DNA of 35,088 nt from positions 1-35,088 of IMG/VR virus record IMGVR_UViG_3300045972_000017, one strand, 5' to 3'. The translations under genes were made by a program, and so were the position numbers. This DNA comes from a virus. This document shows positions 8,540 through 31,210 of the stretch, in pieces. Position 1 is the first letter of the stretch. Every line of letters starts with the position of its first letter. The notes under the pieces were generated by a model. The model did not search any database. It saw only the letters and a program-made list of their open reading frames with translations, and was not told the DNA's origin.

Positions 8540-8866
8540 GTGCGCGAGTCCTCGACTGAGAAGGCGGTGAATGCGTGGGCACGCGCCCACGGCATTCAAC
8601 CGCTCAAGCTCAGCGTGATGGGGGAGAACGGCTGGCCGGACCGGCTGTATCTCTTCCAGTACCCGTTCGTCGCGTTTATCGAGTTTAAGTCACCTGGAAA
8701 CAAGCCACGTCCGCTGCAAGAAGCCAGAACTGCTGGGCTTAGGAAGCGGGGCTACCCTGTTGGAGTGTTTGATGAAGTTCATTCAGCAATTGCGTTCCTG
8801 GAACTACACCTGGAGAACCTAAAGCATGGAAAAACCAACCAGAGAGCAGATGGCCCTGTGGGTTAG
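8540..8866 (+). CDS. VRR-NUC domain endonuclease
   Basis: It starts at GTG 8540 directly after the preceding TGA and encodes 108 residues. The compact VRR-NUC core is visible: GWPDRLYL (D34), then FVAFIEFKSPG (E48, K50), Q60, and the VGVFD strand near residue 75. Stand-alone VRR-NUC proteins in phages are Holliday-junction or structure-specific endonucleases, so this probably resolves branched replication intermediates. It may act with the polymerase and RecB-like nuclease encoded just before it. Its 3' end is overlapped by 41 bases by the HNH gene, which suggests that the HNH gene was inserted at or near this boundary. Confidence 0.85.
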   Translation: MRESSTEKAVNAWARAHGIQPLKLSVMGENGWPDRLYLFQYPFVAFIEFKSPGNKPRPLQEARTAGLRKRGYPVGVFDEVHSAIAFLELHLENLKHGKTNQRADGPVG

Positions 8867-9314
8867 ATACGACGCACACACTGGAGAAATCGTGTGGGTG
8901 GCCAATAGAAAAGTCGAGAAAGTCGGCTTGTCTGCCATTACATGGGGAGACGGAAGATACGGCAGGGTAGCCGCATGTGGAGTCAGAGTCTACGCACATC
9001 AGGTGGCTGTGCTATTCATGACTGGTGAGTGGCCCGACGAACACACGGACCACAAAGATGGGAATACCCGAGACAATAGGTGGGACAACCTGCGCGCCTG
9101 CTCACAGAAGGTAAACAAACAGAACTGGCAGGGGGCCACGAGCAGGAGCAGCACGGGTCTTCTTGGGGCCTACACCCACCCCACCAAGGGATACCAGAGC
9201 ACCGTACGCGTAGAGGGTAAGCTGAAGCACTTGGGGTTCTTTGATACAGCACAGGAGGCGCACGACGCGCACATGCTTGCCCGCAGGATACACTACGAGG
9301 GGAATACGCTGTGA
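8826..9314 (+). CDS. HNH endonuclease with AP2-like DNA-binding domain (homing type)
   Basis: A 162-residue protein. The N-terminal half carries the HNH_3 signature: AHQVAVLF (H58), then DHKDGNTRDNRWDNLR (residues 75-90) with the Asn residues of the beta-beta-alpha metal fold. The C-terminal half (about 107-160) matches an AP2-type domain: STGLLGAY, then YQSTVRVEGKLKHLGFFDTA and AHDAHMLARRIHYEG. This pairing is typical of free-standing homing endonucleases in phages. Its start lies inside the VRR-NUC gene and its stop overlaps the helicase GTG. It is probably selfish and not needed for replication. Confidence 0.9.
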   Translation: MEKPTREQMALWVRYDAHTGEIVWVANRKVEKVGLSAITWGDGRYGRVAACGVRVYAHQVAVLFMTGEWPDEHTDHKDGNTRDNRWDNLRACSQKVNKQNWQGATSRSSTGLLGAYTHPTKGYQSTVRVEGKLKHLGFFDTAQEAHDAHMLARRIHYEGNTL

Positions 9315-11098: not shown

Positions 11099-11175
11099 GT
11101 AGCCTCGATACCTGGGCACACTGCCCAAACCCGGCGCCCCTCGGGATTCCATAGGTGGCAACAAGGATGAATGAA

Positions 11176-11625
11176 ATGACTGAGCAAGTGAGCGCAAGCT
11201 CGACCCCCGTTGCGGCAGACGCACCGCAAGCATCGACTGTCGGCGTTCGCGGTCCCAAGGGCGTGTCCCTGGACGCGAAGATTCTGGTCCTTGCCGCTGG
11301 CAACCCCAAGCGTGAAGGCTCCAAGGCCCACGCAGTGTTCGCCAAGTACCATGACGGCATGACAGTGCAGGAGTTCCTGGACTCCGCTGGCGCCGAAGCC
11401 ACCCCCAACCTCGTCTACGACGCGGGCCACGGCTTCATCTCCATCGACGGCTACACCCCCACCAAGGTGTTCGTCGCCAAGGTGAAGGAGCCCAAGGCTC
11501 CGGTGGAGGCCGCCGCGCCGAAGCCCAAGAAGGAGAAGGTTGCCAAGGCCGCCAAGCCGAAGAAGACCGTGGAAGCCGCGCCGGTTGCCCCGGACCTCGT
11601 GGTGGCTGAAGAAACCATCGACTAA
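11176..11625 (+). CDS. lysine/alanine/proline-tailed protein, possibly nucleoid-like
   Basis: Three in-frame starts exist (GTG 11155, ATG 11167, ATG 11176). The last is chosen because AAGGA ends eight bases before it. The 149-residue protein has a folded middle (about residues 25-95, including DAKILVLAAGNPKREGSKAH and YHDGMTVQEFLDSAG). A histone-H1-like tail follows, with repeated K-P-K-K and A-A-K motifs (KPKKEKVAKAAKPKKTVEAA). The tail suggests nucleic-acid binding. It is encoded just before the modification block under a strong promoter, so it may coat or organise phage DNA; this is inference. Confidence 0.6.
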   Translation: MTEQVSASSTPVAADAPQASTVGVRGPKGVSLDAKILVLAAGNPKREGSKAHAVFAKYHDGMTVQEFLDSAGAEATPNLVYDAGHGFISIDGYTPTKVFVAKVKEPKAPVEAAAPKPKKEKVAKAAKPKKTVEAAPVAPDLVVAEETID

Positions 11626-11693: not shown

Positions 11694-12482
11694 TTGGAGA
11701 TTATTATCCACACATATGGGCGTGCGACGCTGGCCCAGCAGCACACGCTCCAGGCCCTGCTGGCTGACGGCATAAAGCCGTGGCTGTGCGTGCAGGACCG
11801 TGAGAAGGACAAGTACGAGTGGTACGAGGGGCCGCTGATTGTTCTGCCCCCGCACATCACCACGCTGGCCCCCACCCGCGACTGGCTGATCCACGAGTGG
11901 CCGGAGGGGGACAACGAAGTCGTGTTCCTGGACGACGACTTGGCGTTCTTCGTGCGCCGCGACGACGACCGCACCAAGTTCCGCAAGCTGGTGAAGGGGG
12001 ACCTCACCGCCATGTTTGACTACATGAGGAAGTGCTTGTCGCCAGACAACGAGGGCTACCCCCACGTCGGCATTGCGCCGCGAGAGGGGGGAAACCGCTT
12101 GACTGACCATTCATACCCCAATACTCGCCTGATGCGTGTGCTGGGCTACCGCCGCGACTACCTGCGCCACCACAAAATCACGTTCGCCCCGATGGTGGTC
12201 ATGGAGGACTTCAGTGTCAACCTCCAGGTGCTGCGTTCAGGCGAAGATTCGCTGATGCTGAACAACTGGTGCAGTAATCAGGTGGGCGGCAGCGACGCCC
12301 CCGGTGGCTGCTCCACGTACCGCACCTCACAGGTGCAGAATGACAGTGCACATTTGCTCGCCAAGATCCACGCACCCTTCGTGCGTGTGGTGGAGAAGAC
12401 TACGAAGGGCGCGTGGGGTGGGGGCACTCGCACCGACGTCGTGGTTTCGTGGAAGGCCGCGAGAAGGAGTGCTGACAAGTGA
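11694..12482 (+). CDS. TET-associated glycosyltransferase (TAGT)-like DNA-base glycosyltransferase
   Basis: It starts at TTG 11694, supported by AAGGAG eight bases upstream. The 262-residue GT-A-type enzyme opens with IIIHTYGRATLAQQHT, a nucleotide-sugar strand-loop. A metal-binding acidic triad, FLDDDLAFF (D80-82), follows. The C-terminal half has VMEDFSVNLQVLRSG (E171, D172) and GGCSTYRTSQ (about 204-213). This order (GR, DDD, EDF...LLR, GGCSxYR) matches my memory of the TAGT family. Comparative genomics predicts that family to glycosylate oxidised or hydroxymethylated pyrimidines in DNA. The next gene is another DNA-hypermodification family, which supports the call. Sugar donor and base are unknown. 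Confidence 0.72.
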   Translation: MEIIIHTYGRATLAQQHTLQALLADGIKPWLCVQDREKDKYEWYEGPLIVLPPHITTLAPTRDWLIHEWPEGDNEVVFLDDDLAFFVRRDDDRTKFRKLVKGDLTAMFDYMRKCLSPDNEGYPHVGIAPREGGNRLTDHSYPNTRLMRVLGYRRDYLRHHKITFAPMVVMEDFSVNLQVLRSGEDSLMLNNWCSNQVGGSDAPGGCSTYRTSQVQNDSAHLLAKIHAPFVRVVEKTTKGAWGGGTRTDVVVSWKAARRSADK

Positions 12483-13309
12483 GCGCCGAACAGCAACTGG
12501 CCTACTGGATCAACGAGCGCTGGGCGATCCACGTCAAGAAGGACATCCAGAACCTGCCCAAGCCGTGGTCTAGTGACCCCATCTTCCAGCGGGTACGGTT
12601 CTGCAACGTGCACCGCGAGGACGACGCGGTGACGAAGTGGATGCGGGAGAACTGGAACCGTGCCCACGACCCCGTGTGGAAGTTCGTGCTGGGGCGGATG
12701 ATGAATCTGGTCGACACGCTGGCATTCATCCCCACGGAGCCGAACAGCGATTCTCCAGCCGGCGCCATGTTCGCAGTGAGCCACCTTCGCGACGCCGGTG
12801 ATAAGATATTCACAAGCGCCTACACTATCAGCACCTGTGGCAAGAGCATGGACAAGCTGAAGTATGTGCAGGGGGTATTGGAGGCTGTGGAAGCCCGAGA
12901 GTTCGGAGGCGTGGGGTGGCCGAACTGCACTTCTCTCGCCACGGCTTGGAAGAGCCTATGCGAGATCGACGGTCTGGGAAGCTTCCTCGCCGCGCAGGTG
13001 GTGGCTGACATGAAGAACACGCCGAACCACGCCCTAGCAGGCGCGGTTGACTGGTGGTCCTGGAGCGCCCCCGGCCCTGGGAGCCTGCGGGGGCTGAACT
13101 GGTTCTTCTACGGCAGCGACAAGGGGCCAATCACCCCCGGCGGGTACGACAACGCCATCAATGAGTGCTGGGAGAAGACACAGCCGCTGATCGACACGAT
13201 GCCGAGAATCGGCATGCAGGACTTCCAGAATTGCCTCTGTGAATTCAGCAAGTACATGAAGCTTAAACATCGCGGGGGCCATGCGCGCAACCGCTTCCAA
13301 GGAGTGTGA
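12479..13309 (+). CDS. 5-hmdU DNA kinase helical-domain (aGPT-PPlase type) protein
   Basis: GTG 12479 overlaps the previous stop. The 276-residue helical protein has the signature PWSSDPIFQRVRFCNVHRED (residues 29-48) followed by AVTKW. Further on are GLGSFLAAQVVADM (165-178), which resembles a helix-hairpin-helix glycosylase-like segment, and GPGSLRGL (199-206). These match the family first predicted as alpha-glutamyl/putrescinyl-thymine pyrophosphorylases and later linked to 5-hydroxymethyl-dU DNA kinases as a helical domain. No P-loop kinase domain is attached. It probably recognises or modifies 5-hydroxymethylated bases in duplex DNA. Its 3' end overlaps a small membrane-peptide ORF. Confidence 0.72.
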   Translation: MSAEQQLAYWINERWAIHVKKDIQNLPKPWSSDPIFQRVRFCNVHREDDAVTKWMRENWNRAHDPVWKFVLGRMMNLVDTLAFIPTEPNSDSPAGAMFAVSHLRDAGDKIFTSAYTISTCGKSMDKLKYVQGVLEAVEAREFGGVGWPNCTSLATAWKSLCEIDGLGSFLAAQVVADMKNTPNHALAGAVDWWSWSAPGPGSLRGLNWFFYGSDKGPITPGGYDNAINECWEKTQPLIDTMPRIGMQDFQNCLCEFSKYMKLKHRGGHARNRFQGV

Positions 13310-13427
13310 CGCGAGCACTAAAGACGTGGCGTGGGCAGTGGCCTGTATCGCGGGATTCGTGGTGGCCTGGGTTGTCATCGGTCTGATGGCGTGGTCCACC
13401 TACAGAAACGGCAAGGAAAGGAAATAG
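13281..13427 (+). CDS. 48-residue single-pass membrane peptide
   Basis: The frame from ATG 13281 to TAG 13425 encodes a charged N-terminus (MRATASKECDASTKD), then a clear transmembrane stretch (AWAVACIAGFVVAWVVIGLM, residues 17-36) and a basic tail ending in NGKERK, fitting an N-out/C-in topology. It overlaps the preceding gene by 29 bases and has only a weak ribosome site, so translation may depend on coupling. It could be holin-like or an exclusion peptide; nothing proves either. The next gene starts three bases later. Confidence 0.5.
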   Translation: MRATASKECDASTKDVAWAVACIAGFVVAWVVIGLMAWSTYRNGKERK

Positions 13428-13429
13428 AC

Positions 13430-13849
13430 ATGGCCGACTTTTTCAAGAGTGTTGAGACCTTCAACAAGATGTACCGCATCCCCTGCCCGGCCACCCCGGG
13501 GCTCCATGGGGGCATGACCCAGCGCATCCAACAGTTCCAGTCCATGGTGCAGCACGAGCTGACTGAGGGCGGGGAGATTGCTGAGAAGGTCCAGGACGGC
13601 GCACCGCAGATCGAGATCCTTACCGACCTCGCCGACTGGCTGGGGGACATTGTGGTGTATGCGACGTCCGAGGCCGTGCGCTACGGCATCCCGCTGCCCG
13701 AGGTGCTTGCCATCATCATGGAGAGCAACGCCTCCAAGCTACAGGCTGACGGCACTGCCAAGTTCGTCGATGGTAAGCTCCAGAAGGGGCCGAACTATTG
13801 GAAACCCGAGCCCCGTATCCGGGCTCTTCTTGAGGAGAAGCTGAATTGA
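13430..13849 (+). CDS. MazG/PRA-PH-like NTP pyrophosphohydrolase
   Basis: ATG 13430 follows AAGGAAAGG. The 139-residue all-alpha protein has the metal-binding pattern of the MazG/HisE/dUTPase superfamily: QHELTEGGEIAEKV (E-x3-E type helix), then LADWLGDIVVYATSEAVRYG (D and E/D metal ligands), then IMESNASKL and GPNYWKPEPRI at the end. Members hydrolyse nucleoside triphosphates or phosphoribosyl-ATP. Beside a thymidylate synthase homologue, a plausible role is shaping the dNTP pool, for instance removing an unmodified nucleotide. Its end overlaps the TTG of the next gene (TTGA). Confidence 0.8.
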   Translation: MADFFKSVETFNKMYRIPCPATPGLHGGMTQRIQQFQSMVQHELTEGGEIAEKVQDGAPQIEILTDLADWLGDIVVYATSEAVRYGIPLPEVLAIIMESNASKLQADGTAKFVDGKLQKGPNYWKPEPRIRALLEEKLN

Positions 13850-14823
13850 GAAGCATCACAGTTCCCGGTGTCAACCAAGCCTTCGTGGAAGGATGGTGGC
13901 ACCTGAAGACGAGCGGGGTGCGGGAGGAATCCCGTAACGGCCCCGTGCTCGTGTCCCCCGACCCCGTCTGTACGACTTACTTCTACCCCCAGCAGCGGGT
14001 GCTGTTCAACGAGAAGCGGGACGCCAACCCCGTGTTCCACTTGATGGAGTCCCTGTGGATGCTGGCAGGTCAGGCCGAGATTGCGTGGCTGGAGCAGTTC
14101 AACGCAGGCATATCTAGGTATGCAGAGCCGGAAGGGTACATCCACGGAGCCTATGGAGCTCGGTGGCGTTTCTGGTCTGGGTTCGACCAGCTAGATGTGC
14201 TGGTAGACAAGTTCAAGAATGATCTTGGAACCCGACACGGTGTTCTACAGATGTGGGATGCAGAAACCGACATCGACGGCGACTGGAAAGACAGGCCATG
14301 TAACACTCACATCTACTTCGACTGTCGCCCAGGAATGGGTGGGCAGCGCAGGCTGAACATGACGGTGTGCTGCCGGAGTAATGACATGCTGTGGGGTGCC
14401 TACGGCGCCAACGTGGTGCACATGAGCATCCTGCAAGAGTGGCTGGCTGCGGCGATTGGCGTGCCGATGGGTGTGTACCGCCAGATGTCCAACAACTTCC
14501 ACGTCTACCTGGACAATGAGCAGGTCAAGCACTTCCTGGACAACCCGCCAGACGAGTGCCACCAGAAGTACCCGGAAGTCTACCCCCTCCTTTCACCGGG
14601 GGAACCCCCCATGCAGTTCTTGACGGACTGCGACCGCATTTCGTCCGGAGCACTGGATGGCTTTCAGACTCGGTTCTTTAAGAACGTGGCTGGCCCGCTG
14701 GCGGATGCCTACCTGTCCCGCAAGGCCGGGCGTCCCATGGACCTCGGAGCCATCGCCGACTGTGACTGGAAACAAGCGTTCCAACAATGGCTCAACAGGA
14801 GAAGCAGCAGTGTCAAAAGCTAA
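13846..14823 (+). CDS. thymidylate synthase family enzyme (candidate dUMP/dCMP hydroxymethylase)
   Basis: It starts at TTG 13846, with GAGGAG upstream, and has 325 residues. Conserved elements are RDANPVFHLMESLWMLAG (58-75), GAYGARWRF (101-109), the catalytic cysteine in RPCNTHIYF (C152), CRSNDMLWGAYGANVVHMS (176-194) and NNFHVYLDN (216-224). This is the phage branch of the thymidylate synthase fold with GAYGAN in place of the bacterial GLPFN. That branch includes true dTMP synthases and hydroxymethylases that make 5-hydroxymethyl-dUMP or -dCMP. Position in a block with hydroxymethylpyrimidine-modifying families favours the hydroxymethylase reading; motif reading alone cannot decide. It is translationally coupled upstream and overlaps the DUF3310 gene. 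Confidence 0.85.
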   Translation: MRSITVPGVNQAFVEGWWHLKTSGVREESRNGPVLVSPDPVCTTYFYPQQRVLFNEKRDANPVFHLMESLWMLAGQAEIAWLEQFNAGISRYAEPEGYIHGAYGARWRFWSGFDQLDVLVDKFKNDLGTRHGVLQMWDAETDIDGDWKDRPCNTHIYFDCRPGMGGQRRLNMTVCCRSNDMLWGAYGANVVHMSILQEWLAAAIGVPMGVYRQMSNNFHVYLDNEQVKHFLDNPPDECHQKYPEVYPLLSPGEPPMQFLTDCDRISSGALDGFQTRFFKNVAGPLADAYLSRKAGRPMDLGAIADCDWKQAFQQWLNRRSSSVKS

Positions 14824-15250
14824 CGAAACACAGGTGGGCGGCGACCACTATCACTCCCAAGGCAATCAGCTCCAGCACTGGGACGTAGTCAGGATCTTCA
14901 AGCTGGACTACTTCCAGGGTCAGATCACGAAGTACGTTCTTCGTTGGAAGGACAAGCACAGCACCCACGAGGGTCGGGTGCAGGACTTGAAGAAGGCCCG
15001 GCACTTCCTGGACAAGTACATCGAGACTGCCGAAGACTGGGACTTCCGGCTGGCCGAGGAGCTGATCTCCAAGGAGCCTATGGTCGTAAGAACAGAGGTC
15101 CACACGTGGTGCGCCGTGGAGGGTTACTTTGGCAACATGACGCAGGAGTATAAGTGCCTGCACTGCCATGTTTGCACCGTGGCAGCGGCCCCGCCGGAGG
15201 CTTGCCCCGCCTGCGGCAACGGCCAAGACGGGCTTACGCGCCCCAAGTAA
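14810..15250 (+). CDS. DUF3310 (SaV-like) protein with C-terminal zinc ribbon
   Basis: It starts at GTG 14810 with AGGAG eight bases upstream and overlaps the thymidylate synthase gene by 14 bases. Residues 4-60 are DUF3310: TQVGGDHYHS, then LQHWDVVRIFKLDYFQGQIT and KYVLRWKDK. This small phage domain was proposed as a nucleotide-metabolism protein and is often found with thymidylate synthases. The last 40 residues add a putative zinc ribbon (CLHCHVC ... CPACG). The fusion could tether the domain to DNA or to a partner enzyme. It is the last gene of the modification block. Confidence 0.8.
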   Translation: MSKANETQVGGDHYHSQGNQLQHWDVVRIFKLDYFQGQITKYVLRWKDKHSTHEGRVQDLKKARHFLDKYIETAEDWDFRLAEELISKEPMVVRTEVHTWCAVEGYFGNMTQEYKCLHCHVCTVAAAPPEACPACGNGQDGLTRPK

Positions 15251-15399: not shown

Positions 15400-15585
15400 G
15401 TGGCAAAGTTCCAAGTCTATAGGTGCGTACGGATTGACATGGGGGGTCCGTACCTTGAGGTGCAGTGGGCGTCAATGAACACCACCATCGTCGCTGAGAG
15501 CGCGGAGGCTGCTCTGGCAGCAGCTTCCGCCAAGTTCCCCAAGAAACGCGGCATGCTTGCCGTCCAACCAATCGCGGAGAAGTGA
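15400..15585 (+). CDS. small protein, unknown function
   Basis: GTG 15400 is preceded by AGGAG; the in-frame start at 15352 would lie within the promoter. The 61-residue product looks like a small alpha/beta domain: a beta strand (KFQVYRCVRID), another strand (LEVQWASMNTTIVAES), an alanine-rich helix (EAALAAASAKF) and a basic end. Such compact proteins are common in early phage operons; function is unknown. The next gene starts one base after its stop. Confidence 0.6.
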   Translation: MAKFQVYRCVRIDMGGPYLEVQWASMNTTIVAESAEAALAAASAKFPKKRGMLAVQPIAEK

Positions 15586-15586
15586 G

Positions 15587-16231
15587 ATGCAGAAGTATCT
15601 AGCCCTGACCAATGTCGATTCCCTGGACCCCCTGCCCGCGCTGGGGGCGCGGCTGCTGCGGGGGTACGAGAAGCCAGTGGAGACGAAGATCAACGCGTTC
15701 CGAGAGTTCGAGACTCAGAAGTTCGAGCTGAACGACGAGGTGTGCAAGCAAGTCAGCTACCCCGGTGACTTTCTTAAGGCTCTAGCCTATTCCACTGCGT
15801 CGTGCGAAGCAGTGAAGAAGTTCAACAGCGACATGAACAAGCTGGTCCAGAAGACGTGCGGCACGCCAGTCACCAAGGCGCAGGTCTTGGAAGCCCGTGG
15901 GAAGGCCGCAGCCCGGGTGGGTATGCCAGTGAGTCGACTGAATGATCTGTGGGCCAAGCACTGCGAAGAGAAGCGGCTTGGCGGCTACAAGGACTCGGCC
16001 AACGAAGAACTGTATCAGCAAGCCCGGGACTTCTTCAACAGCCTGGGGAAGACTGTGCTGGTGTCTGACTACCACGCAGTTATCGCAGCGAGTGAGGGGG
16101 CGAGTACAGAAGAAGACCCCCACGATTTCTATGCCCAAGCTCGGGCTGCTGTGCTTGGACGGCTTGGTGGCCCCAAGCCCACCCCTGAGCAGTACGGCGC
16201 CATGCTGACGTGGATCGAGAGCCATGCTTAA
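15587..16231 (+). CDS. helical protein, unknown function
   Basis: ATG 15587 follows the previous stop by one base and lies close to GGAGAAG. The 214-residue product is mostly helical and rich in Lys, Glu and Ala. Recognisable landmarks are LLRGYEKPVETKINAFREFE near the N-terminus and ARVGMPVSRLNDLWAKHCEE in the middle. No catalytic motif, membrane segment or domain is evident. It overlaps the HAD gene by eight bases, so the two are coupled and may act together. Confidence 0.6.
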   Translation: MQKYLALTNVDSLDPLPALGARLLRGYEKPVETKINAFREFETQKFELNDEVCKQVSYPGDFLKALAYSTASCEAVKKFNSDMNKLVQKTCGTPVTKAQVLEARGKAAARVGMPVSRLNDLWAKHCEEKRLGGYKDSANEELYQQARDFFNSLGKTVLVSDYHAVIAASEGASTEEDPHDFYAQARAAVLGRLGGPKPTPEQYGAMLTWIESHA

Positions 16232-16703
16232 CAAGGCGCTTCTCCTAGATCGAGACGGGACGCTCATCCTGGAGAAGACCCCTGGCATGCTGCCAAAAGA
16301 CGTGCAGCTCATTCCAGGGGTGCTTGCCAATCTGCGGCAGGCGCGTCTCGATGGGTTCAGGCTCCTGCTGGTGACGAATATGTCGTCAGTGGGCCTGGGG
16401 CTGATTACCGAAGCGCACAGCCGGGCGGTGTTCCGGGCCATGCACAAGCTCCTGCACGATGGAGGCGCACCCCTCGACGACGTATACGTGTGTGACCACT
16501 CCCCCGACGAGGAGTGCTACTGCCGCAAGCCCATGCCGGGGCTCCTGCATCTGGCGATGGCAGAGCACGACGTGGACGCCCGTGAATCCTGGGTGATAGG
16601 TGACCGCGAGACCGACATAAAGGCTGGGGAGAGGGTCTATGGGATGAATACCCACCGCGTTGCGAAGAACCACCCATGGAAGCTTCCGTACAGAGGGTAC
16701 TAG
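16224..16703 (+). CDS. HAD phosphatase, GmhB-like (D,D-heptose 1,7-bisphosphate type)
   Basis: A 159-residue HAD enzyme. Motif I is LLLDRDGTLI (nucleophile D9, acid D11), motif II is LLLVTN (47-52), and motif IV is IGDRETDIKAG (125-135). The zinc site of the GmhB/histidinol-phosphatase branch is present: C90, H92, C98 and C100 in CDHSPDEECYCRKPMPG. GmhB enzymes remove the C7 phosphate from heptose bisphosphate in LPS core synthesis. Here it may feed a nucleotide-sugar route, or simply be a generic phosphatase. A GT9-type glycosyltransferase is encoded in the late arm, which makes a sugar role attractive but unproven. Confidence 0.85.
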   Translation: MLNKALLLDRDGTLILEKTPGMLPKDVQLIPGVLANLRQARLDGFRLLLVTNMSSVGLGLITEAHSRAVFRAMHKLLHDGGAPLDDVYVCDHSPDEECYCRKPMPGLLHLAMAEHDVDARESWVIGDRETDIKAGERVYGMNTHRVAKNHPWKLPYRGY

Positions 16704-25279: not shown

Positions 25280-25813
25280 TCAGGTCTCCAGTCGTACGCA
25301 AATAATCATCGAGACGCGCTCGTAGGGGGTGGGGTTCTCCACCCAGTGGAGGTACTGATTGTCGAACCAGTACAGGTCGCCCGGCTTGGTCTCCAGGGCG
25401 CAGTCTTCCATTGCGAAGACCTGCCCCGGGGCGCTGGCAATCTGCACGGCGAACTTCGAGTACCTACGGGCGTGCCAGCCGGGGTCCACGTGCGGCTTGC
25501 ACGTCTTGCCAGGGGGGATGCGGGTGATGAGTACCCCGCCCAGCTCCACCCCGTTGGTGAAGTGCAGGATGTCCGAGCACAAGCCCTTCACGCCCAGCAC
25601 GTCGGCACTGGGGTACCAGAACGACGTATGCGGCTGGCCGTCAACCGAGCGCTCGGGCTCTCCGTACCGGAGCCAGATGTCGTCAAGCCCGTAGTGCGGG
25701 CTCTCCGGGCTGGCGGTGCGCGTAGTGTGCTCGTTCCATAGCTGTGGGTTCTTCAGCAGCGCCCAGTAGATGGGCGCCACGTTCAGACCCTGACCGATGA
25801 GCTGCGCGTTCAT
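25280..25813 (-). CDS. 2-oxoglutarate/Fe(II)-dependent oxygenase (Asp/Asn hydroxylase type)
   Basis: A 177-residue protein starting at ATG 25813 (ATGA overlap with the cupin gene). The Fe(II) facial triad is visible as H108 and D110 (PHVDPG) and H156 (YLHWVENP), and R166 in ERVSMIICVR fits the 2-oxoglutarate-binding Arg. The jelly-roll pattern and NxxxHxVxN-type tail resemble aspartyl/asparaginyl beta-hydroxylases and phage 2OG oxygenases. The substrate could be a virion protein, an amino acid or a nucleic-acid base; location in the late operon favours a virion or cell-envelope target. The next gene starts two bases after its stop. Confidence 0.8.
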   Translation of the reverse strand: MNAQLIGQGLNVAPIYWALLKNPQLWNEHTTRTASPESPHYGLDDIWLRYGEPERSVDGQPHTSFWYPSADVLGVKGLCSDILHFTNGVELGGVLITRIPPGKTCKPHVDPGWHARRYSKFAVQIASAPGQVFAMEDCALETKPGDLYWFDNQYLHWVENPTPYERVSMIICVRLET

Positions 25814-26127
25814 GCCACGAGCCTCAGCGATTCTTCAGCCAACTGGCGCGGGGCTAGATCCCCAGCCCACAGGCACAGCCAGATGATGTCTGTCTTGGCG
25901 TAGACAGAGTGGCGCGTATTGGCCGGCACCGTGGCCGTGCAGTACCCCGTCAACTCCTGCTCCACGCCGTCGATTGTAACGATAGCGGTGCCAGACACTA
26001 GCACGGAGGTGTGCGCGTGCGGGTGGACGTGGGACTCCAGCATGTGCCCAGCGGGCGCCGTGGTTTCGACGACGAACACGTTGCCGTCGGCCTCTTCGCC
26101 ACCAAAGAACTTGATTCCGAATGTCAT
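25810..26127 (-). CDS. cupin-domain protein
   Basis: A 105-residue single-domain cupin with ATGA overlaps at both ends. Cupin motif 1 is SHVHPHAHTSVLVSG (H33, H35, H37, H39) and motif 2 is VPANTRHSVYA (H73), enough to bind one metal ion. Small cupins include sugar epimerases, dioxygenases and ligand-binding proteins, so the activity is undetermined. It is paired with a 2OG oxygenase, suggesting joint action on one metabolite or on a virion component. Confidence 0.8.
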   Translation of the reverse strand: MTFGIKFFGGEEADGNVFVVETTAPAGHMLESHVHPHAHTSVLVSGTAIVTIDGVEQELTGYCTATVPANTRHSVYAKTDIIWLCLWAGDLAPRQLAEESLRLVA

Positions 26128-28364: not shown

Positions 28365-29314
28365 TCCTCGCCCCCGGGTTGGAAGTATGCGTCAGAGATT
28401 TCCGCCCCGCCATTACGGGCGATGGCGAGCGCGCTGTTCTTCAACTGCTCCATCTTCTGGTCCCACTTGGCGCGGAACATGGGGCAGATCTGCTCGGCCA
28501 GCCCCCAGCACAGCGCCAGAAACCACTCCTGCGGGAAGTGAGGGGCGTCTGTGCCGTTGACGAAGTCCTGTACGGGCTCCATGTAGGTCAGCACGGCGTA
28601 CTTGGTGACGTCCTGCGCAGCCCCCACGTCAAAGTAGACCGTGGCTGCGTTGATACCCTTCTCAAAATACAGGGCTGAGGGGTCGCCAATGTTCGTGGGG
28701 TCGGCCTTGTTCGGCAGTGCGTCGTATGTCTGCACGGTCATGACGCGCAGGGGGTTGTCTGAGAGGTCAGAATCGCGCAAAAGCGCGGTTTCGACGACTA
28801 GGGGCGACTGGGCTGCTGTTTGGTAGACAAAAAGTTGCGCCCCGGCCTGCACTGCGGCAGGCAGTGCGCCCGCTAGGTTTATCGTGGTGCCCGCTACTGA
28901 GGACACTGTGGTCCAGAACAGCGTGCCAGCGCACTCAATGCCAATGTGATAGGTGCCGGCCACCCCCGTGACTGAGGAAGCGACGACTGCTATGGCCCCC
29001 TGAGCTGCGTCCAGCGTGGTGGCCGTGCTAGCAAACGAGTTGGTCCAGCCAGTGGCCGTGGGGCCGATGGGGCGCACGCCCGTCGTGCCATCAAGGAACA
29101 GGTAACCCCGCCTGCGAGTCCACACCTTGAGTCCAGGGGCGAAGTCAGACTTCCCCATCCACTGCTTCACCAGCATATTCAGCACAAAGGCACAGTCCGT
29201 GAGTTCTGTGCCTTGGACGGTGTCGTCAGGGTCCAGGCGATGTATGTTCAACATCGCCTGCCGGATGATCTGGTCCCTAGTTACTGAGAAGCTGTAGCTG
29301 CCCGATGTTGTCAC
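28361..29314 (-). CDS. P22 gp4-like head-to-tail adaptor
   Basis: It starts at GTG 29314 with GGAG eight bases upstream and overlaps the previous gene by 38 bases. The 317-residue protein begins with the gp4-type helical N-terminus (RDQIIRQAMLNIHRLDPDD, LTDCAFVLNMLVKQWM). It ends with a helical tail (QEWFLALCWGLAEQICPMFR). It is longer than P22 gp4 (166 residues) because of a beta-rich insertion in the middle (about residues 85-180). It should bind the portal and connect to the gp10-like hub encoded next; the portal gene itself is not in the window. Confidence 0.75.
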   Translation of the reverse strand: MTTSGSYSFSVTRDQIIRQAMLNIHRLDPDDTVQGTELTDCAFVLNMLVKQWMGKSDFAPGLKVWTRRRGYLFLDGTTGVRPIGPTATGWTNSFASTATTLDAAQGAIAVVASSVTGVAGTYHIGIECAGTLFWTTVSSVAGTTINLAGALPAAVQAGAQLFVYQTAAQSPLVVETALLRDSDLSDNPLRVMTVQTYDALPNKADPTNIGDPSALYFEKGINAATVYFDVGAAQDVTKYAVLTYMEPVQDFVNGTDAPHFPQEWFLALCWGLAEQICPMFRAKWDQKMEQLKNSALAIARNGGAEISDAYFQPGGED

Positions 29315-30851
29315 TTAAGCACTCCGCGATGGCGTCCCAGACTTCCTCTACGGGAATGTCTTTCTGACACTGCGCAGTGCCGGTCTCGGCATCCCGCTTG
29401 CAGTGGTCCCAGCCGTAGTGTAGCTGATGGCAGGCCGGAACGGCACCATTCCCGCGCCCAGGACAGGCAGTGTTCTTCGCCCACAGTGAGGTAGTGTTCA
29501 CCCAGTCACGTGTGAGGTTCTCTGCCGTAGAGTGGGAGAGGAACACGATCTTGCGGGCGGGCAACAGCGCGGCGGCATTCATCACGCCGGTCTCCGGGCC
29601 AATAATCAGGTCTGCCTGCTCGAGGAAGGCAAGACTCTGCCGGATACTCCAGACGCCCGAAGTCTTGACGATGCGGGGCTCGTTCTCCCAGCCAGACTCG
29701 AGTATTACGCACTCCGGCCCACCCACCAGCACCACGCACACGTCCGGCATGCTGACCATGAAGCTAGCCAGTATGTTGTCTAGGCCCGCCCACGTCTTGT
29801 GCACAGAACTGCCTGCCAGTGACCAGACGACGACTTTACTGCCGCCAATCTTCCGCCGCTGGGCCTGCGCCCACGTGCGCTCCCCCTCTGTGGGGTAGAA
29901 CCTCGACTCCAGCTTGTACGGGGTCTCTGCGATGGCGTGCTGCATCTCCGTGTAGTTGCGGTTCATCAACGAGTGCCGCAGCGCCGGGGGATAGAAGTGA
30001 ATGGTGCGGCCCGGCATAGCGAGCAGCGCGCCCTCCACGGACTCACTGAGGTTTACCCACTTGTCGAACTTCTTTTTCTGCCAGTTCCAGAAGTCAGTAA
30101 GGTTGGCGTTCGGCACCTGATCTTTGTCGAACAGAACAATCTTGTCCAGGTGGGGGTCATTCTCCACGACTGCTGCGCCCGGCAGGCTGCTGAATAGCGT
30201 GACGTGGTAGCCCTGCTTCTTCAACGCAGCAAACACCGAGCTGGATTGCATAAGATCCCCGAAGGCGCCGTACCGCACTACGCAAGCCGTCTTCTCAGGC
30301 TTGCTGCACCGCCACGACTCTCGCCGTTCCTTGCTGCTGAGCTTCTGGTACACCTGGAGGAAACTGTACTCCATCCCCTCGTTACGCTCCTGGTTCTCCA
30401 GGAGATCGAAGCCCGCAGGCATCTTCGCAGTGACGTGCTCGGGCAGGAAGTCGTGCTTGTGGTCTGTATTCGCCCCAGGCTGTCCGATGTTCGGGTAGAA
30501 GTCTTTGTGGGGGAGGTACAGGACGAGGTAGCCCCCCACCTTCAACACGCGCCACCACTCCCGCAGGGTAGCCTCAGTGTCCTGTAGGTGTTCCAGCGTG
30601 TGGCTGGAGTACACGAAGTCCATAGACTTGCTGGCGATCATCTCGAGATTGTCAGCCTCAGCGACGATGTCTGGCTTGTGTTGGAACCCGAAGTGCTGGT
30701 GGTGATGAAGGTTGTCTACCGTGATGGCGTGGGGCAGGATGCGGAAGTCCCCCGCGCCTACGTCAAGGCCCCGTCCTTTCAGGTACGGTGCCACTTCCCA
30801 CACAATCTTCTTTGACTCGTTGCCTTGCGGGTCTTGGATGTTCCAGGTCAT
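29277..30851 (-). CDS. SAM methyltransferase / GT9-type glycosyltransferase fusion
   Basis: The start is ATG 30851, with AGGAGCAGGA upstream and an ATGA overlap. The 524-residue protein has an N-terminal class I methyltransferase (about 1-180): GRGLDVGAGDFRILP as the SAM loop, SHTLEHL, and LREWWRVLKVGGYLVLYLP. The C-terminal half (about 210-520) is GT-B fold of the heptosyltransferase (GT9) type: CVVRYGAFGDLMQSSSVFAA, VVVWSLAGSSVHKTWAG and IGPETGVMNAAALLPARKIV. GT9 members add heptose to LPS, but phage homologues may decorate virion or host surface. It sits between a wHTH-type gene and the gp4-like adaptor. Confidence 0.8.
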   Translation of the reverse strand: MTWNIQDPQGNESKKIVWEVAPYLKGRGLDVGAGDFRILPHAITVDNLHHHQHFGFQHKPDIVAEADNLEMIASKSMDFVYSSHTLEHLQDTEATLREWWRVLKVGGYLVLYLPHKDFYPNIGQPGANTDHKHDFLPEHVTAKMPAGFDLLENQERNEGMEYSFLQVYQKLSSKERRESWRCSKPEKTACVVRYGAFGDLMQSSSVFAALKKQGYHVTLFSSLPGAAVVENDPHLDKIVLFDKDQVPNANLTDFWNWQKKKFDKWVNLSESVEGALLAMPGRTIHFYPPALRHSLMNRNYTEMQHAIAETPYKLESRFYPTEGERTWAQAQRRKIGGSKVVVWSLAGSSVHKTWAGLDNILASFMVSMPDVCVVLVGGPECVILESGWENEPRIVKTSGVWSIRQSLAFLEQADLIIGPETGVMNAAALLPARKIVFLSHSTAENLTRDWVNTTSLWAKNTACPGRGNGAVPACHQLHYGWDHCKRDAETGTAQCQKDIPVEEVWDAIAECLSDNIGQLQLLSN

Positions 30852-31210
30852 TCCTGCTCCTGTGGTAGCTTCCAGGTCTCCATCTTCTGGTACTGGAACT
30901 TTACGATGCTGAGGGACGCCGCAGCCTTGGTGACCCAGGCCCACGTCTGGTTGTTCTGCTCAGCCGCCTTGTAGACCGCTGACTTAGAGACGGGGCTGGT
31001 GCGGAGCACCGTGCGTAGGAACTGCTTGGCAGACTCCAGCTCGTCTGTGGGGACCTCTAGATCGGTCTGCGGGACGAGCTCGAGCTTAGGGGGCTCTTGG
31101 GGAGACCCGAGCTCGATGCCCTGAGCGTTGAAGCACACCCCTCCCTGCTCGTAGCGAATTGTGTCGCTGCCGTAGACGTCTGCGTAGGGCTTGGAGCGGT
31201 CAAGGAGCAT
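30848..31210 (-). CDS. small protein with helix-turn-helix-like C-terminus
   Basis: ATG 31210 is chosen because AAGGAGG lies nine bases upstream, within the preceding gene; the longer frame to 31267 lacks this. The 120-residue protein has an extended N-terminal part (including AQGIELGSPQEPPKLELVP). Its C-terminal helix bundle, LESAKQFLRTVLRTSPVSKS then AVYKAAEQNNQTWAWVTKAA, has the turn pattern of a winged helix. This would be an unusual DNA-binding domain in a tail module; a small terminase-like or structural role is possible. The function is unknown. Confidence 0.55.
   Translation of the reverse strand: MLLDRSKPYADVYGSDTIRYEQGGVCFNAQGIELGSPQEPPKLELVPQTDLEVPTDELESAKQFLRTVLRTSPVSKSAVYKAAEQNNQTWAWVTKAAASLSIVKFQYQKMETWKLPQEQE

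Follow-up and report, generated by a model that had tools for sequence, protein, structure and literature searches.

What does a run of five consecutive genes on the + strand of a virus, spanning positions 11694–15250 of a 35,088-nt window (the whole stretch of DNA analysed here), do to the DNA of that virus? An earlier note had read it as a candidate cassette for hypermodification of a DNA pyrimidine, consisting in order of a TAGT-like glycosyltransferase, an HMUDK-type helical protein, a MazG-like NTP pyrophosphohydrolase, a thymidylate synthase (TS)-type enzyme and a DUF3310 protein. All five families are present in that order, and the conservation of this order and the linkage between HMUDK_hel and the TS homologue agree with such a function. 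The pathway class is well supported; most likely, part of the phage thymine is swapped for hydroxymethyluracil carrying a sugar.

The first gene (11694..12482, +) encodes a 262-residue protein that matches the TAGT family PF20691 in Pfam (E 5.3e-13; 49.8 bits against a cut-off of 27.5), a match recovered as well when the record was searched with this family, and the second (12479..13309, +) a 276-residue protein that matches HMUDK_hel, also called aGPT-PPlase1 (PF18723; E 6.1e-34; 118.1 bits against a cut-off of 25); neither protein thus belongs to an unrelated family. The fourth gene (13846..14823, +; 325 residues) also lies above the Pfam cut-off, for Thymidylat_synt (PF00303; E 2.2e-19; 70.1 bits against 24.3), and matches phrog_5131 in PHROGs (E 1.8e-92). 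The remaining two proteins, for which Pfam matches had likewise been expected, fall below the Pfam cut-offs and are assigned by PHROGs. These are the MazG-like protein (PF03819, E 0.0023; phrog_671 nucleotide pyrophosphohydrolase, E 1e-16) and the DUF3310 protein (PF11753, E 4.6e-4; phrog_5839, E 1.4e-20; phrog_236, E 6.7e-18), whose relatives frequently occur as fusions with nucleotide kinases. For both, the start given previously has been moved: the MazG-like gene (13430..13849, +) most likely begins at the ATG at 13430 behind AAGGAAAGG, giving 139 rather than 172 residues, and the DUF3310 gene (14810..15250, +) most likely at the GTG at 14810, giving 146 residues. The description of the genes as mostly overlapping holds for three pairs (TAGT/HMUDK_hel, MazG/TS and TS/DUF3310), but a gap of about 120 nt separates HMUDK_hel from MazG.

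The order TAGT–HMUDK_hel–(MazG)–TS–DUF3310 is seen again in other loci at 42–60% identity, and the cassette is kept in more than 100 virus contigs. Among loci seeded with TAGT, TS is found in 79/80 and HMUDK_hel in 78/80. Three TAGT loci (L009, L057 and L087) have no detectable HMUDK_hel. The recurrence of the order at this level of identity, together with the linkage of HMUDK_hel and TS, argues that the arrangement goes beyond chance. With the 8 kb region as a nucleotide query, the phage collection gave no match. That the cassette has decayed, or that its co-location is mere phage synteny, is very improbable. The other heptose genes have been lost in the window and the nearby replication genes are also syntenic, but the five frames are open and carry conserved motifs, and the linkage holds in unrelated settings (LuckyBarnes, Luna18 and M6) while the gene upstream of HMUDK_hel changes.

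The earlier note was right in the idea that a pre-formed 5-hydroxymethyl base is glycosylated, but left the base vague; it can be narrowed to hmdU from the residues of the TS homologue. Its catalytic cysteine, C152, is invariant among the TS homologues aligned, and an asparagine aligns to E. coli TS Asn177, as in Pseudomonas phage M6, whose enzyme shares 39% identity over the full length. Asn at this position and a PCN motif occur in about 100 TS homologues with a readable motif, and this signature is identical whether the locus carries TAGT, a kinase or another putative glycosyltransferase. Under the Asn-177 substrate rule for the TS superfamily (PMC8670742), the catalytic cysteine and the asparagine, as in M6, indicate that the product should be 5-hydroxymethyl-dUMP and not hmC; the M6 DNA modification derives from hmdU (PMC6449724, PMC9476957). 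Cytosine as the target was ruled out by the Asn177 signature. It is quite unlikely that this enzyme is a standard thymidylate synthase, or one that hydroxymethylates dCMP, and that TAGT acts on hmC or on a non-DNA target. The T-even TAGT does use hmC derivatives as substrate (PMC13216743) and most depositors label the family thymidylate synthase, but the asparagine speaks against dCMP, and the gene is strictly linked to HMUDK_hel, the M6 homologue of which is part of an hmdU system.

HMUDK_hel of the window is homologous to M6 gp55. The label 'HMUDK-type' is misleading in that it implies a kinase: PF18723 describes only the helical partner of the 5-hmdU DNA kinase, the P-loop kinase itself being a separate family, PF18748, which is absent here. 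PF18748 matched neither the 35,088-base record, which is possibly incomplete, nor the TAGT-type records searched, M6 serving as a positive control that did match. A second profile, made from 11 kinases, was likewise silent in the window, and a P-loop kinase hidden there was therefore rejected. Two actinophages likewise carry TAGT and HMUDK_hel without PF18748; among phages in culture, LuckyBarnes and Luna18 have this pair and no detectable kinase.

In M6 the kinase gene lies directly upstream of HMUDK_hel; in the window this slot is occupied by TAGT. Across 108 non-redundant loci the slot holds TAGT in 95, a kinase in 7, and one of two other putative glycosyltransferases in 5 (GTb in 3, GTa in 2). 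Partners were assigned in 107/108, that of L117 being unreadable, and two occupants are never found in one locus. Counted by starred branches on the tree, the partner has switched at least 6 times. Bacillus phage SBSphiC carries a natural kinase–HMUDK_hel fusion. The exchange of slot occupants is thus observed directly, and it suggests that TAGT and HMUDK_hel act jointly. The TAGT residues D80 D81 D82, a DxD-type acidic motif, are invariant in 64 homologues, and the fold of the T6 TAGT is reported to be GT-A (PMC13216743). Comparison of GTa with GTb by hhalign showed no relation, and the predicted GTa model is of low confidence (pLDDT 46). The exchangeable slot, the fusion of kinase and helical protein elsewhere and the ADP-heptose genes in sister phages (below) all go beyond the earlier note. 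Its remark that no TET/JBP oxygenase is visible is consistent with PF12851 matching 0/37 records including the window, a count to be read against control genomes that were equally silent; 'TET-associated' is not an apt term for the surroundings of this cassette.

The predicted model of HMUDK_hel (pLDDT 94.7) has DNA glycosylases as its best Foldseek matches, with weak E-values of 0.06–0.4, and VIA structural alignment gave Z 8.0–9.2, moderate for a helical protein. The PaMx11 5-PmdU glycinyltransferase (8z2m) aligned with Z 9.0 over 212 residues at 8% identity; a search by sequence found no solved structure of HMUDK_hel or of the kinase. Seventeen residues of HMUDK_hel are invariant, the same ones with every type of partner. 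Because its fold resembles that of a DNA glycosylase, HMUDK_hel may be a shared base-engaging subunit served by exchangeable catalysts. Chromosomal HMUDK_hel genes were retrieved but excluded, because TS, kinase and TAGT are often missing nearby.

An alternative is that HMUDK_hel is itself an enzyme, for example a base-acting transferase, with TAGT acting separately to give two modifications or a two-step product. The likeness to 8z2m, which acts on phosphomethyl-dU, the pyrophosphorylase-type activity predicted by the older name aGPT-PPlase1 and the 17 invariant residues would fit this, but we consider it unlikely: the kinase that would supply a phosphorylated substrate is missing, the kinase–HMUDK_hel fusion and the adjacency of the genes indicate one joint reaction, and the invariant residues are identical with every partner.

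The reading we favour, with somewhat better than even confidence, is a thymidine-replacing glycosylation cassette in which hmdU is made before replication and glycosylated in DNA, probably with heptose. The TS-family enzyme would convert dUMP into 5-hydroxymethyl-dUMP, as its active-site signature and kinship with M6 suggest; the MazG-like enzyme may help to remove competing dNTPs, probably dTTP or dUTP, and the phage PolA would incorporate hmdUTP. After replication, HMUDK_hel would engage the DNA and present hmdU, and TAGT would place a sugar, instead of a phosphate, on the 5-hydroxymethyl group. ADP-heptose is the candidate donor, the GmhB-like step being encoded by the phage and the rest presumably supplied by a Gram-negative host. 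The modified product would protect phage DNA against restriction.

The identity of the sugar is the weakest step, and the case for heptose from ADP-heptose stands slightly short of even. Heptose is preferred because every step of the pathway is encoded in the sister phages, and the GmhB-like one persists in the window. In the sister loci an HldE-kinase/GmhA/HldE-NT/GmhB operon follows the cassette; these sisters lie in a 99* clade of the tree, and the operon, confined to that one clade, is therefore a single evolutionary observation. No heptose gene lies within 10 kb of L243, a distant GTa homologue. The window holds, at the same place, only a gene for a 159-residue GmhB-like HAD phosphatase (16224..16703, +), which matches NCBIfam GmhB (E 2.8e-31, below the equivalog cut-off), PDB 4pnh (E 3e-22) and HisB (E 1.8e-21); GmhA and HldE (kinase, nucleotidyltransferase) were not found in the window. 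The gene is proposed to be a remnant, or the remaining step, of the pathway complete in the sisters. That hmdU instead receives a sugar common in the host, for instance glucose donated by UDP-glucose, and that the GmhB-like gene is a relic or serves another role, appears rather unlikely. Known TAGTs do add glucose (PMC13216743), GmhA and HldE are missing from the window, and most TAGT loci of its type have no sugar-donor genes nearby. Yet the closest relatives retain the whole operon immediately after the cassette, where the window, too, has its GmhB-like gene. A bolder reading, less likely than not, is both that HMUDK_hel is a general DNA- and base-presenting subunit for interchangeable catalysts (kinase, TAGT and the two putative glycosyltransferases) and that this phage clade carries heptosyl-hydroxymethyluracil DNA, a base of which no report was found in the literature searched.

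The nearest known system, the thymidine hypermodification of M6 (Mesyanzhinovviridae), shares with the window a homologous dUMP-hydroxymethylase-type TS, HMUDK_hel and the local order slot–HMUDK_hel–x–TS near PolA. M6 has a P-loop kinase in the slot, an amino-acid:DNA transferase, and radical SAM and PLP enzymes, whereas in the window the slot is taken by TAGT, and PF18748 and PF18724 are both missing. The latter family, the amino-acid:DNA transferase, was above cut-off in kinase-type records only, and searches for it were positive in M6 and Sonora and without match in the window. PaMx11 gp46 (8z2m) has an all-helical fold similar to the HMUDK_hel model, but acts on phosphorylated hmdU and so needs a kinase not found in the window. 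The T2/T6 TAGT (beta-glucosyl-HMC-alpha-glucosyltransferase) belongs to the same family, PF20691, but its substrate is already glucosylated hmC (PMC13216743), in contrast to the context of hmdU and HMUDK_hel here. Gram-negative LPS ADP-heptose biosynthesis (GmhA, HldE, GmhB) has all four enzymes in common with the sister phages, in which, unlike the LPS pathway, the genes come immediately after a cassette for DNA modification. The set of TS, aGPT-PPlase1 and TAGT is already known from pelagiphages: the parts of the HTVC023P-type podovirus report available to us describe TS, aGPT-PPlase1 and a putative TAGT near PolA, without proposing how they work, that partners are exchanged or which donor supplies the sugar (PMC9599517).

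If correct, this reading would give the 'aGPT-PPlase1 / HMUDK helical' family, so far unexplained, a role that can be tested, as a targeting subunit common to kinases and glycosyltransferases, and would account for part of the solitary phage TAGTs, which occur in 288/753 phage genomes (PMC13216743). It would also predict a DNA base that is new and bears a seven-carbon sugar, and that could withstand restriction enzymes and known sugar-removing defences. The exchange of kinase for TAGT beside a putative DNA-gripping protein hints at an interchangeable viral tool for DNA decoration, and a subunit presenting hmdU to various enzymes might serve as a DNA-labelling tool. Directly upstream of the cassette lies a further small gene (11155..11625, +), which is found at 36–69% identity in related TAGT loci.

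The five genes lying in succession at 11694–15250 (+ strand) of this 35,088-base IMG/VR virus record (G+C 61%) most likely form a cassette for DNA hypermodification based on 5-hydroxymethyluracil deoxynucleoside (hmdU), in which a TAGT glycosyltransferase replaces the DNA kinase beside its helical partner, HMUDK_hel; the added sugar is probably heptose. Pfam places all five families that the earlier note had named, in the order TAGT (E 5.3e-13), HMUDK_hel (6.1e-34), MazG (0.0023, sub-threshold), thymidylate synthase (TS; 2.2e-19) and DUF3310 (4.6e-4, sub-threshold), and PHROGs backs all five assignments. The MazG and DUF3310 genes most likely start at 13430 and 14810, respectively, so that HMUDK_hel and MazG are separated by ~120 nt and the remaining cassette junctions overlap. 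This gap holds an open frame (13307–13427, +) for a potential small hydrophobic single-helix peptide of ~33–39 residues.

In Pseudomonas phage M6 the HMUDK_hel homologue is gp55, and gp54, directly upstream, is the P-loop 5-hmdU DNA kinase (PF18748), whereas in the window TAGT adjoins HMUDK_hel in place of the kinase. The kinase is also directly upstream in Sonora and Pam3, is separated from HMUDK_hel by one small gene in Rhizobium RHph_I65, and is naturally fused to it in a 636-residue protein of Bacillus phage SBSphiC (L241:4056–5966; kinase 35–193, HMUDK_hel 312–597). PF18748 had no match in the window or in those TAGT-type relatives whose whole records were searched, and a profile built from 11 kinases and applied to 149 loci confirmed the absence of the kinase from the window and TAGT-type loci. 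Among HMUDK_hel-seeded loci without TAGT, the slot directly upstream of HMUDK_hel is occupied by the kinase (L123, L126, L128, L144, L145, L146, L149), by a GT4-like protein (L104, L134, L139) or by GTa (L090, L094), which has no Pfam match and is taken for a glycosyltransferase from its motif and context; the partner in L117 was not readable. Two partner types never share a locus (0 of 108 non-redundant loci). Parsimony on the HMUDK_hel tree requires 12 changes of partner; counting well-supported branches for TAGT gives at least six, and the partner labels cluster no more than shuffled labels do. The amino-acid:DNA transferase PF18724 had no match in the glycosyltransferase-type records searched; M6 and Sonora alone scored above the cut-off, and the remaining two matches, both sub-threshold, lie in other kinase-type contigs.

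Searching with the HMUDK_hel protein recovered six contigs with identical gene order (42–60% identity). In profile scans, TAGT-seeded loci (n=80) contained HMUDK_hel in 78 cases and TS in 79, while HMUDK_hel-seeded loci (n=80) contained TAGT in 67 and TS in 79. The loci share the order PolA, SNF2 helicase, a small gene that is conserved in the TAGT loci shown, the slot, HMUDK_hel, (MazG), TS, (HD nucleotidase) and DUF3310; HMUDK_hel precedes TAGT in seven TAGT-seeded loci. MazG and the HD nucleotidase are mutually exclusive in the compared loci, as if both did the same pool-clearing job, which would be the role of MazG here.

TAGT, HMUDK_hel and TS also occur outside this phage family, in the two actinophages LuckyBarnes and Luna18, which have no PF18748 match. 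PhiW-14, Montesquieu and nACB2 (L234, L236, L238) have HMUDK_hel and match neither the PF18748 nor the TAGT profile; there the partner either has diverged or belongs to a different class, and the slot rule thus does not yet cover every member. Divergent HMUDK_hel homologues (L262–L278), mostly in alphaproteobacterial MAGs, have no TS, kinase or TAGT nearby.

The choice between dUMP and dCMP is set by the residue at the E. coli Asn177 position (PMC8670742). An alignment with solved TS structures puts Asn at this position in the window homologue and Asp in a CMP hydroxymethylase. All homologues with a readable motif have this Asn, and all but one have PCN around the active-site Cys, whichever partner class they belong to. 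M6, whose DNA is hmdU-derived (PMC6449724), has a homologous enzyme (39% identity); signature and kinship together point to hmdU as the base. That the product would be hydroxymethylated rather than methylated is suggested by kinship and context.

HMUDK_hel keeps an identical 17 invariant residues whatever its partner, and its AlphaFold2 model is confident (pLDDT 94.7). Foldseek ranked 8-oxoguanine glycosylases, MutY and AlkA highest, with weak E-values; VIA-align gave Z 9.2 for the DUF2419 queuine salvage enzyme, 9.0 for 8z2m, the PaMx11 5-PmdU glycinyltransferase, and 8.1 for endonuclease III. These matches make a base-engaging role plausible for the modelled protein, and we infer that TAGT and HMUDK_hel act jointly.

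The window belongs to a clade (99*) comprising L002, L013/L014, L016, L053 and L088 (TAGT) and L090 and L094 (GTa). Where these loci reach far enough, DUF3310 is directly followed 3' by HldE kinase, GmhA, HldE nucleotidyltransferase and GmhB (NCBIfam E 4e-52, 5e-59, 8.5e-31 and 5e-40 in L002). This heptose operon is present in all three GTa contigs found in the viral collection, and 10 of 80 GmhA-seeded virus loci contain HMUDK_hel, each with TAGT or GTa. Heptose genes were sought within 10 kb in the distant GTa locus L243 and none was seen; the operon, confined to one clade, counts as one evolutionary observation. The window retains a single heptose-pathway gene, GmhB-like (16224–16703; PDB 4pnh, E 3e-22, HisB close behind). 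Together with the operon in sister loci, this gene indicates ADP-heptose as the probable donor in the clade; the window phage may take the remaining steps from its host. At the position of the sister phages' heptose kinase and isomerase, 15557–16231 (+) encodes a 224-residue protein with no family and no homologue in the loci. The window and two sister records each have, in the late region, a weak match to GT9, a heptosyltransferase family; in the window (29277–30944, −) it is C-terminal (E 8e-4) to a methyltransferase domain, a possible second use of ADP-heptose.

No report of heptose in phage DNA was found in the literature searched, which took in a minority of subscription papers. Diverse DNA glycans were reportedly described by Pyle in 2024. 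The combination of TS, aGPT-PPlase1 (HMUDK_hel) and a putative TAGT had already been noted in pelagiphages (PMC9599517), and many phages carry solitary TAGTs whose role is unknown (PMC13216743).

Elsewhere in the window, among the structural genes, an Asp/Asn beta-hydroxylase-like 2OG oxygenase (25280–26127, −) adjoins a cupin-like protein, and an HNH_3 endonuclease gene (8826–9314, +), probably encoding a homing endonuclease, lies outside that region, flanked by VRR-NUC and SNF2 helicase genes.
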